DNA of 64,000 nt, taken from positions 434,001-498,000 of the forward strand of contig WGND01000003.1 in NCBI GenBank assembly GCA_016124805.1, written 5' to 3'. The notes beneath the pieces were generated by a model. It worked only from the letters and a program-made list of their open reading frames with translations. It had not been told where the DNA came from and made no database searches. Each line of letters begins with the position of its first letter. Position 1 is the stretch's first letter. This document shows, piece by piece, positions 54,772 through 60,890 of the stretch. Source of the DNA: Hyphomicrobiales bacterium. GTDB lineage: Bacteria; Pseudomonadota; Alphaproteobacteria; Parvibaculales; Parvibaculaceae. Position numbers and translations under genes: made by a program.

Positions 54772-58553
<3,782 letters not shown>

Positions 58554-58573
58554 GCTTCCACTGACTTCGCCCA

Positions 58574-58603
58574 TGGGTCCCGGGAACAAGTCCCGGGACG
58601 ACG
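58574..58603 (+). repeat. Palindromic repeat copy A (upstream of GIY-YIG gene)
   Basis: This 30-nt unit is identical to copy C at 58957-58986. Within it GTCCCGGGA and TCCCGGGAC form a 9-bp hairpin stem (58577-58585 with 58591-58599) around the loop ACAAG. It lies between ligA and the GIY-YIG gene. Confidence 0.95.
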
Positions 58604-58621
58604 CAGGGAATCATTTTTGTC

Positions 58622-58644
58622 ATCCCGGCACTTGTTGCCGGGAT
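58622..58644 (-). repeat. Palindromic repeat copy B (inverted, diverged)
   Basis: On the minus strand it reads ATCCCGGCA, loop ACAAG, TGCCGGGAT: the same 9-bp stem and 5-nt loop as copy A in the opposite orientation. Two stem positions differ from A and both are changed on the two arms together, so pairing is kept. A and B form an inverted doublet 22 bases apart. Confidence 0.93.
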
Positions 58645-58663
58645 CCAGTCAGGTCTGAGGGGG

Positions 58664-58951
58664 ATGCATTATTTTGTTTATATACTCGCAAGTCGCAAAA
58701 ACGGGACGCTCTATATCGGCGTGACGAATGATGTGGCACGGCGCGTCTGGGAGCATCGGCAAGGCAAAGGGTCAATCTTCGCGCGCAAGTACAAGGTTCA
58801 TCGGCTTGTTTATGTTGAGGCGTTTGAGGAGATTGATCGCGCCATCCAGCGCGAAAAAACCATGAAAGAATGGCCGAGAGCCTGGAAGATCAGAGTGATT
58901 GAAGAGCGCAATCCCGATTGGAATGATCTCTATAATGATTTGTTGAGATGA
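58664..58951 (+). CDS. Small GIY-YIG nuclease-superfamily protein
   Basis: The product has 95 residues, just one GIY-YIG domain. VYIL at 5-8 replaces GIY, LYIGV at 16-20 supplies YIG, and R27 and H31 follow in ARRVWEHRQG. The C-terminal AIQREKTMKEWPRAWKIRVIEERN is the long conserved helix of the UPF0213/YhbQ-like group (cited by its ends). Members are numerous in alphaproteobacteria and their function is not established. GAGGGGG lies at the ATG itself, closer than usual. The gene is bracketed by an inverted palindrome doublet upstream and one palindrome five bases after the stop. Confidence 0.88.
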   Translation: MHYFVYILASRKNGTLYIGVTNDVARRVWEHRQGKGSIFARKYKVHRLVYVEAFEEIDRAIQREKTMKEWPRAWKIRVIEERNPDWNDLYNDLLR

Positions 58952-58956
58952 GTGCC

Positions 58957-58986
58957 TGGGTCCCGGGAACAAGTCCCGGGACGACG
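58957..58986 (+). repeat. Palindromic repeat copy C (downstream of GIY-YIG gene)
   Basis: It is identical over 30 nt to copy A and in the same orientation, beginning five bases past the GIY-YIG stop. It may also act as a transcription stop, although no T-run follows. Confidence 0.95.
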
Positions 58987-59029
58987 TATGGGACTTTGCT
59001 GGCACTTCGCCAAATTTGCCGTTTGGTTT

Positions 59030-60844
59030 CTATATCGCGCGGGTGGCGTGGAGCAGCCAGTGATGTGTGTCTTCGTCGAGCAGCGGCGTCAGCGCTTCAT
59101 AGACACGTGCATGATAGGTGTTGAGCCATTCTGCTTCTTCATCACTCAGGAGATCGCGATTGACGAGTTCGAGATCGATGGGTGCAAGTGTCAGCGTTTC
59201 AAAGCCGAGCATGTCGCGCTCACCGCCTTCAACGGGCGCGGGCGGTGTCACAACCATCAGATTTTCAATGCGGATGCCGTAGGCACCGGTTTTGTAATAG
59301 CCGGGCTCGTTGGAGAGGATCATGCCGGGTTTGAGCGGCACGGTGCCCGCCTTTGAGATGCGCTGCGGGCCTTCATGTACCGAGAGATAGCTGCCAACGC
59401 CATGGCCGGTGCCGTGGTCGAAATCGAGACCGGCTTTCCACAGCGCCATGCGGGCAAGCGCATCAAGCTGCGCGCCGGAGGTGCCTTCGGGAAAGCGGGC
59501 ACTGGCAAGGGCGATATGGCCTTTGAGGACGCGGGTGAAGCGGTCGCGGGGCTCATCCGCCACGGCGCCAATGGCGACGGTGCGAGTCACGTCCGTTGTG
59601 CCGTCGAGATACTGACCACCGGAGTCGACCAGGAAGAGCTCGCCGATATTGAGCGGGCGGTTGGTGCCTTCCGTGACGCGGTAATGGACAATGGCGCCAT
59701 TTGAACCGGCGCCGGAGATTGTGTCGAAGGAGAGGTCTTTCAGCGCGCCGGTTTCCGCGCGGAAGGCTTCGAGCTTCTTGGCCGCGGTCATTTCATCAAG
59801 GCTGCCCTTGGCGCCTTCAACACTGACCCAGGCGAGGAAGCGTGTCAGCGCAGCTCCGTCGCGCAGATGGGCGGCGCGTGTGCCGCGCACTTCTGCCTCG
59901 TTCTTGCAGGCCTTTGGCAGTTCGCAAGGATCTGACCCGCGCTTCACTTCGGCACCGGATGACTTCAATTGGTCGTAAATGGCGGAGGCGCAAGTCGTCG
60001 GGTCGACCAGCACGGTGGCTTTTGTTTCGCCCAGTCGGGCCAGCGCCTCATTCAGTTCACTGCGCGGACGGATACTCACCACGTTGCCGAGATGAGCACG
60101 CGCGACATCGTCCAGCTTGTGTTCGTCGATGAAGAGATCGGCATGGCCATCCTCATGCAGGATGGCGAAGGCAAGGGCGAGCGGTGTATGCGAGACATCA
60201 CCGCCACGAATATTGAAAAGCCAGGCGATGCTGTCCGGCATGGTGAGAACGGCGGCGCTGGCATCACCCGCCATCAGATCGTTCGTTATACGCTTGATCT
60301 TGTCGGCGGCTGTTTCGCCGGCATATTCCAGCGGATGAATCTGCACCCTGGCGCGGGGGGGCTCGGGCTGATCATCCCAGACGGCGTCGAGCGGATTGCT
60401 CTCGACCGGCACGAAGCTGCCCCCGGCCTTTTCGGCAGCCTTGCGGAAGCGGGCCACCGCATCGACCGTATGCAGCCAAGGGTCATAGGCGAGTTTGGCG
60501 CCTTTGGGCAGATTTTCTTCCACCCATTGTGAAGCGGGCATGTCGATCATGTGGACCGGATCGAAAATATCGATATCGACCTGATCGCGCACCTGCAGCG
60601 TGTAGCGGCCATCGACGAAAATGGCCGCCTTGTCGGCAAGTATGATCGCCAGCCCCGCCGAGCCCGAAAAGCCTGTGAGCCAGGCCAGCCGTTCGGCATG
60701 GGGCGGGACATATTCGCCCTGATGCTCGTCGGCGCGCGGGATGAGGAAGCCGTCAAGATTGCGACGCTTCAATTCGGCGCGCAGGCGGGCGGCGCGCTCG
60801 GCACCAAGGGCAGGATTGGCTGTGTCGTCAAATGTCTGGAACAT
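59030..60844 (-). CDS. Xaa-Pro aminopeptidase (aminopeptidase P, family M24B)
   Basis: The product has 604 residues, the long three-domain aminopeptidase P form. Two creatinase-like N-terminal domains (FLIPRADEHQGEYVPPHAERL and AYDPWLHTVDAV) precede the pita-bread metalloprotease domain. Metal ligands fit FLVDSGGQYLDGTTDVTRT (two Asp), FDHGTGHGVGSYLSVHEGP (His) and LSNEPGYY (Glu). It removes N-terminal residues next to proline, in the cytoplasm. I chose the ATG at 60844 (MFQTF); the longer frame to 60886 lacks support. It lies downstream of prmA on the same strand. Confidence 0.94.
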   Translation of the reverse strand: MFQTFDDTANPALGAERAARLRAELKRRNLDGFLIPRADEHQGEYVPPHAERLAWLTGFSGSAGLAIILADKAAIFVDGRYTLQVRDQVDIDIFDPVHMIDMPASQWVEENLPKGAKLAYDPWLHTVDAVARFRKAAEKAGGSFVPVESNPLDAVWDDQPEPPRARVQIHPLEYAGETAADKIKRITNDLMAGDASAAVLTMPDSIAWLFNIRGGDVSHTPLALAFAILHEDGHADLFIDEHKLDDVARAHLGNVVSIRPRSELNEALARLGETKATVLVDPTTCASAIYDQLKSSGAEVKRGSDPCELPKACKNEAEVRGTRAAHLRDGAALTRFLAWVSVEGAKGSLDEMTAAKKLEAFRAETGALKDLSFDTISGAGSNGAIVHYRVTEGTNRPLNIGELFLVDSGGQYLDGTTDVTRTVAIGAVADEPRDRFTRVLKGHIALASARFPEGTSGAQLDALARMALWKAGLDFDHGTGHGVGSYLSVHEGPQRISKAGTVPLKPGMILSNEPGYYKTGAYGIRIENLMVVTPPAPVEGGERDMLGFETLTLAPIDLELVNRDLLSDEEAEWLNTYHARVYEALTPLLDEDTHHWLLHATRAI

Positions 60845-60890
60845 GTGATGAATGTAGGGTTGCGCCCTGCCGGTGGCAACGGGCAAAGGG

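Follow-up and report, generated by a model that had tools for sequence, protein, structure and literature searches.

A GIY-YIG nuclease gene between inverted CGTC REP hairpins is probably one copy of a small mobile unit

The window analyzed here, a stretch of 64,000 nucleotides, carries a 95-residue GIY-YIG nuclease gene with three neighboring palindromes, and both the Pfam match of the protein and the coordinates of the hairpins bear out the description of this locus given in a first-pass annotation of the same DNA. The features, from left to right, are the following.

56445..58553, plus strand: ligA-like gene, the left neighbor (named from the first-pass annotation and from reading of the open reading frame)
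58574..58603, minus strand: CGTC REP 'A', with its hairpin at 58577-58599 and, both on the minus strand, a CGTC tag at 58600-58603 and a CCA tail at 58574-58576
58619..58647, plus strand: CGTC REP 'B', left end of the proposed unit, with a (T)GTC tag at 58619-58621, its hairpin at 58622-58644 and a CCA tail at 58645-58647
58664..58951, plus strand: GIY-YIG nuclease gene, 95 aa (Pfam GIY-YIG, 1.5e-15)
58957..58986, minus strand: CGTC REP 'C', right end of the proposed unit, with its hairpin at 58960-58982 and a minus-strand CGTC tag, inverted relative to B
59030..60886, minus strand: pepP-like aminopeptidase gene, the right and convergent neighbor (named from reading of the open reading frame)

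Each hairpin consists of a perfect 9-bp stem and a 5-nt loop, as had been claimed, with the loop reading ACAAG in A and C and its reverse complement, CTTGT, in B. The reported identity of A and C over 30 nt (58574-58603 and 58957-58986) holds, as do the two stem differences between A and B, which fall at pairs 1 and 8 with paired changes at both positions. DNA folding gave z-scores of -4.2, -6.1 and -4.2 for A, B and C, and none of 200 shuffles folded as well. The tag of B points leftward and that of C rightward, so that the gene, whose ATG starts 16 nt past REP B, lies between inverted hairpins with their tags outward. The gene is thus bracketed by hairpins as originally proposed, but the inverted bracketing pair is B and C rather than the A/B doublet, and REP A sits just outside B as an element extra to the unit.

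Judged by tag, tail, stem and loop, the window hairpins fit the CGTC-tagged REPs, which the available part of the 2013 survey that defined them (Di Nocera et al. 2013, PMC3733652) describes as having a C/TGTC tag, a CCA tail, an 8-9 bp stem and a 4-5 nt loop. The unpaired tag is CGTC on the minus strand in A and C and TGTC in B, the CCA tail is found in all three (in A and C as TGG at 58574-58576 and 58957-58959), and the 9-bp stems and 5-nt loops lie within the described ranges. One departure concerns the first stem pair, which is A-T almost invariably in the available text of PMC3733652 and G-C in window A and C. The same text reports that CGTC REPs form inverted doublets, predominantly HH, that they occur mainly in Alphaproteobacteria, and that CGTC-1 to CGTC-4 include dRS3 of Neisseria as well as RPE-6 and RPE-4 of Rickettsia conorii. 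It further states that a dedicated transposase was apparently missing and leaves the mover open, transposase genes having been looked for near CGTC REPs with only a few fortuitous cases found.

The enzyme encoded between the hairpins belongs to the GIY-YIG superfamily by domain match, by fold and by its conserved residues. Y6, Y17, R27, H31, E64 and N83 are all present in the window protein and conserved in at least 151 of 152 rows, among which the window gene counts twice, and we take the conserved Y, Y, R, E and N to have catalytic roles. A confident AlphaFold2 model of the protein (pLDDT 93, pTM 0.84) has UPF0213 BH0048 as its nearest solved fold (E 2e-5), followed by Slx1 and HIGLE (E 0.008-0.1), with only 1zg2 falling below 0.001; with such fold neighbors it is plausible that the protein is a structure-selective nuclease. 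The sequence is unmatched in NCBIfam and has a weak match to a homing-endonuclease phrog (E 2.5e-5). Carriage by phages or by plasmids was considered and rejected, as identity was at most 38% in 12 phage records and below 60% in all of 37 plasmid records, mostly large replicons among the 25 listed.

In the genome to which the window belongs (3.2 Mb, 20 contigs), the window-type hairpin has 10 matches at up to 3 mismatches, nine of which are true hairpins; three of these roughly ten genome-wide matches lie at this one gene, a grouping that is therefore not due to chance. A second search pattern gave 24 matches, compared with 2 in the control, and its commonest sequence (6 of the 24) is identical to a hairpin beside C18:10429-10707, the only other subfamily gene in the genome. 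The protein of this second gene is 56% identical to that of the window, and its architecture is the same, with an outer and an inner hairpin upstream and an outer-type copy downstream. Nine pairs among the 24 matches have spacings of 39-63 bp; the tags face outward in four of them and inward in five. The third GIY-YIG gene, C1:24364, whose product we take to be YhbQ-like, shares 34% identity with the window protein, and no hairpin of at least 8 bp lies within 1.5 kb of it. A further REP type, with 7 copies of ATGGCCCG-type hairpins, flanks neither subfamily gene, and these copies are possibly relics of a lost nuclease.

Comparison across genomes provides the principal evidence that the gene and the hairpins belong together. 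Among 61 genomes the subfamily gave 90 matches at E <=1e-20, from which 71 loci were examined and 19 left out; these 71 include orthologous loci, with 90 pairs sharing homologous flanks. Two further sets were the best 80 of at least 588 loci confirmed in one GTDB scan (the named loci), which overlap with the 71 in at least three loci on Parvibaculum contigs (L151, L152, L154), and a phylum-wide sample of the best loci from 29 genomes besides our own. The controls were 21 of about 49 weaker, YhbQ-like GIY-YIG matches. The first-pass annotation had offered its link between nuclease and palindromes as an inference, to be checked by their co-occurrence within 200 bases, and such co-occurrence was found: a REP with strict tag and tail lies within 200 bp at 64 of the 71 relatives' loci, 63 of the 80 named loci and 16 of the 29 loci of the phylum sample, where no strictly tagged REP was found within that distance for 13 genes, against 0 of 21 controls. 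Any stem of at least 7 bp occurs within 200 bp at 71/71 loci versus 4/21 controls, and a stem of at least 8 bp at 61/71 versus 2/21, as well as at 22/29 in the phylum sample. The arrangement of plus hairpin, gene and minus hairpin was seen at 50/71, 38/80 and 6/29 loci and at 0/21 controls. Hairpins with stems of at least 8 bp reach densities of 4.8-4.9 per kb in the two gene-adjoining 200-bp bins, compared with 0.37 per kb beyond 1 kb. An even spread of palindromes with no GIY-YIG association, which would have spoken against the proposed link, is not what these data describe, as REPs are ~30- to 65-fold denser beside the genes than beyond 600 bp. Hairpin-bearing loci include records labeled Uhrbacteria, Omnitrophota, Deltaproteobacteria, Marinimicrobia, Planctomycetota, Myxococcota and Bacteroidetes, labels that may err because many of the records are metagenome assemblies. 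A separate observation comes from a Neisseria gonorrhoeae record, chromosome-sized though filed as a plasmid, in which a subfamily gene (L280 1501-1782) stands in an array of 16 dRS3-type motifs within 3.3 kb.

The sequences of gene and hairpins are also correlated. We compared the upstream (U) and downstream (D) hairpins of each gene with the encoded protein at the 49 (U) and 61 (D) of the 71 loci that have a tagged hairpin within 120 bp on the respective side. U and D of one unit have a mean similarity of 0.84 (48 units), against 0.41 for those of different paralogues in a genome and likewise 0.41 for those of different genomes. Across genomes, hairpin similarity rises with protein similarity, with a rho of 0.34 for U and 0.39 for D, values reached by 0 of 2000 within-genome paralogue shuffles on either side. 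With the homologous-flank pairs left out, rho is 0.305 (U) and 0.354 (D) and is still not reached by shuffling, with a thin margin for U, whose shuffle maximum is 0.304. In a best-match test, the hairpin of the closest foreign protein was nearer than those of the siblings in 37 of 43 cases (U) and 44 of 52 (D). Among paralogues, the sequence of the hairpin tracks that of the nuclease. Part of this co-variation is due to the common ancestry of whole units, and it still shows that the gene and its hairpins travel together; co-variation of protein and hairpin would also be expected if they merely did so.

Hairpins of the same kind occur without the gene. REPIN-like doublets lacking a gene are scattered in these genomes and resemble the REPINs of PMC3116915 and the dimers of PMC3733652, as far as the available portions of those papers describe them. 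One genome, G014, holds many GCGAAAGC-type hairpins as plus/minus pairs ~55-140 bp apart, and 20 stretches taken from it comprise 13 doublets of one type, six of a second type and one gene unit. The G014 doublets carry their tags outward, and the 13 of one type (L131-L143) have two distinct conserved ends and mutually dissimilar middles of 50-60 nt, with one of 81; like REPINs, they are inverted multi-copy doublets with conserved ends and a less conserved spacer. A shared origin of the variable middles was rejected, as their local scores are hardly above those of shuffled sequences (mean 7.2 vs 6.7, maximum 13 vs 14). An A-rich stretch of ~10 nt just outside the GTC tag at both ends is strong in G014, moderate in relatives and weak in the named set, and for this last reason it was left out of the defining features. 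It may reflect a target preference or belong to the element itself.

REP copy number and the presence of the gene are related, though not in a strict manner. Across 199 genomes of the phylum, the family is present in 24 of 39 genomes positive for one REP type and in 29 of 160 negative ones (Fisher p 2e-7, kinship ignored), at a family cut of about E 2e-17 that was chosen after viewing the list and below which 13 of the 66 genomes matching up to 1e-10 fall. Fifteen REP-positive genomes are without a family gene at the chosen cut, including G096 with 152 REP copies and G112 with 48. Within the genus, the ten genomes that encode a nuclease of the matching type have a median of 35.5 GCGAAAGC-type copies and the other seventeen a median of 6 (p 0.001), where the 'cognate' genomes were assigned by reading of the loci; G001 has 55 such copies without any subfamily gene, and G006, which does encode a matching nuclease, has only 4. 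The REP-rich genomes in which no gene was detected argue against a simple one-to-one relation; REPs may outlive their enzyme or share enzymes.

The association of the nuclease subfamily with tagged REPs and the presence or absence of whole units at orthologous sites are well supported, and we consider it probable that the window locus is one copy of a small REP mobile unit with a GIY-YIG nuclease dedicated to its REP family. The resemblance to REP elements paired with RAYT transposases, with a GIY-YIG nuclease instead, had been suggested at first sight of the sequence and gains support from the co-occurrence within 200 bp, the inverted orientation and the co-variation of hairpin and nuclease, and also from the gene-less orthologous sites described below and from the absence of a RAYT-type transposase in the genome itself. 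The proposed unit would consist of REP hairpins B and C, inverted and with tags outward, and of the nuclease gene between them, with REP A as a neighbor; its nuclease would be to CGTC REPs what the HUH transposase RAYT/TnpA-REP is to GTAG REPs. Mechanistically, the hairpins would extrude in single-stranded or cruciform DNA, and the nuclease would recognize the tag plus stem-loop and cut near its base, in the way that structure-selective relatives like Slx1 cut branched DNA. Host repair would then complete excision and insertion, such that either the whole unit or a gene-less doublet with like ends could be copied to new intergenic places. We know of no strand-transfer activity in GIY-YIG enzymes, so host repair must be assumed. 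Both the cutting of REP hairpins by the nuclease and the role of this cutting as the driver of REP spread are what we infer from these observations.

Sites orthologous to the window locus are informative in this respect. The ligA locus was located in 23 of 27 genomes of the genus, our own included, and at this site, which the first-pass annotation had proposed to check for emptiness in relatives, the GIY-YIG gene was found downstream of ligA in none of the other 22 (the stretch being short in L061 and L070). The ligA and pepP genes are adjacent and convergent in eight relatives, and no CGTC REP was found in five of these eight intervals (G007, G003, G004, G019 and G005). The remaining intervals hold one REP of another type in G016, a REP-like remnant in G006 and a different palindromic repeat in G023; the REP in G016 and the remnant in G006 indicate that the site entered by the window unit may be prone to REPs. 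The G016 element (L049) has a ATGGCCGGG stem and stands without a nuclease gene, and the G023 repeat (L055), GTCATTGCGAGGAGCG...GGCAATCCAG, has GTCAT...ATCCA ends as in CGTC REPs.

Whole units are likewise present or absent elsewhere. G002 has a unit where G012 and G021 have none, G021 has one ~500 bp away where G002 and G012 have none, and where G013 has a unit, G001 holds a different REP. The gene of Azospirillum lipoferum lies between sufB and sufC in a spacer of 617 bp, and the corresponding spacers of A. ramasamyi, A. oryzae and strain B510 (91, 87 and 129 bp) contain neither the gene nor a hairpin of 6 bp or more. The Azospirillum lipoferum unit (L277 1489-1782) splits the suf operon, and its gene is flanked left and right by REP doublets, with a mismatch in one arm. 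Insertion junctions and target duplications were sought at the G002/G021/G012, G013/G001 and Azospirillum suf sites, where presence and absence are clear and the spacers are too diverged for boundaries to be drawn. Several genomes also have broken copies of the gene, recognizable by stops or split matches. Another place of recurrent occupation is an FAD-oxidase-like gene (named by reading of the open reading frame), on whose 5' side seven Parvibaculum genomes carry units, six with one hairpin type and one with another (L097 at about 1413-1891, and the same place in L029, L098, L099, L100, L101 and L106), and on whose 3' side units of three types are found in three genomes (L024, L103, L109); the units at this gene differ in nuclease type as well as in hairpin type.

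GIY-YIG enzymes are common homing endonucleases, and an alternative to be weighed with some care is REP-targeted homing, in which a selfish nuclease gene cuts REP doublets that something else has spread, and repair based on the shared REP ends then copies the gene into them, the REPs being homes rather than products. The three empty sufB-sufC spacers without any hairpin and the five of eight ligA-pepP intervals without a CGTC REP do not offer such homes, while the G016 REP and the G006 remnant at ligA-pepP, the different REP in G001 at the G013 unit site and the few intergenic places that hold different unit types are REP-prone sites of the kind that homing would use. The weak phrog match also points toward homing enzymes. 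Units nevertheless occur at many unrelated sites, some of them re-used, rather than at the one conserved target site of homing, and among paralogues the hairpin changes with the nuclease, a match that a generalist lodger could do without. Homing into pre-existing REPs is in our judgment unlikely, and the mobile unit with its own dedicated nuclease remains our preferred reading.

It is far less probable that a RAYT/HUH or other transposase moves the REPs and that the GIY-YIG gene is an accidental passenger. The available part of PMC8266576 reports that GTAG REPs are recognized and cut by HUH enzymes, and one genome of the genus, G019, has a Y1 transposase (PF01797), but this family of RAYT-type transposases is absent from 26 of the 27 genomes, our own included, though REPs and nuclease units are present, and only a few fortuitous associations of CGTC REPs with transposases appear in the available part of PMC3733652. 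RAYT was rejected as the mover on the absence of PF01797. We regard as equally improbable a policing role, in which the nuclease acts on REPs or stalled forks as a structure-selective repair enzyme that trims cruciforms and persists alongside REPs without transposition. The gene is sporadic, multi-copy, in places broken and absent from orthologous sites, and bracketing by its own hairpins would be odd for a housekeeping repair gene, even with the branched-DNA nucleases Slx1 and HIGLE among its fold neighbors. Finally, the hairpins could scarcely be terminators or leader structures of the nuclease gene without a role in mobility, a reading that their rather uniform spacing from the gene (medians of 33-36 nt upstream of the matched start and 21-25 nt downstream of the matched end) might suggest and that was rejected as largely refuted, as 58500-59050 contains no intrinsic-terminator-like site, the window locus matches no Rfam family, like hairpins occur in dispersed gene-less doublets, and tag and tail are found on both hairpins, inverted, and at none of the control GIY-YIG genes.

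Among the literature matches listed, a set with most subscription papers and all of bioRxiv outside it, we found no report linking GIY-YIG nucleases to REPs, and the available part of PMC8266576 mentions neither CGTC nor GIY. A broader proposal, to which we give even chances, is that the CGTC REPs of several phyla, including Neisseria dRS3, are miniature copies of transposable elements of a so far unrecognized class, with a ~95-residue GIY-YIG nuclease that cuts REP hairpins as their only enzyme. Such elements would form a second REP-enzyme world, independent of RAYTs, with hydrolytic cutting and host repair replacing HUH strand transfer. A conserved nuclease subfamily at inverted CGTC REPs under many phylum labels is a concrete and testable candidate for the mover. 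If the nuclease does move CGTC REPs, this would account for how one of the two REP superfamilies arose, REP/REPIN populations would have evolved with two unrelated enzymes, and annotators would have a reason for the many small genes labeled 'GIY-YIG nuclease family protein'.

The window unit can be compared with several known systems. The window protein has its fold in common with UPF0213 proteins (1zg2, 1ywl) and with the YhbQ-like protein encoded in the same genome, but genes of the YhbQ-like/UPF0213 type, unlike the window subfamily, have tagged REPs at 0/21 loci. The structure-selective nucleases Slx1 and At-HIGLE, the next fold neighbors after UPF0213, are eukaryotic repair enzymes with 21-25% identity to the window protein. 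Free-standing GIY-YIG homing endonucleases resemble the window gene as small, selfish-looking enzymes of sporadic distribution and differ from it in that the window type has inverted REP bounds, many unrelated sites and gene-less miniature copies. The CGTC REPs of PMC3733652 are alike in tag, tail, stem, loop and inverted doublets, and whereas the available part of that paper gives them no dedicated enzyme, here a GIY-YIG subfamily lies beside and between them. A further parallel is the REP-RAYT system, or REPtron, in which a small enzyme gene is likewise flanked by REPs of its own type, with matching between enzyme and REP sequence, and which shares with the GIY-YIG units the dispersed gene-less inverted doublets, or REPINs, with conserved ends and a variable spacer. 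Where REP-RAYT has an HUH (Y1) tyrosine transposase and a GTAG tag, the window has a GIY-YIG nuclease and CGTC/TGTC tags, so that the window unit appears to work like a REP-RAYT without being a member of that system.
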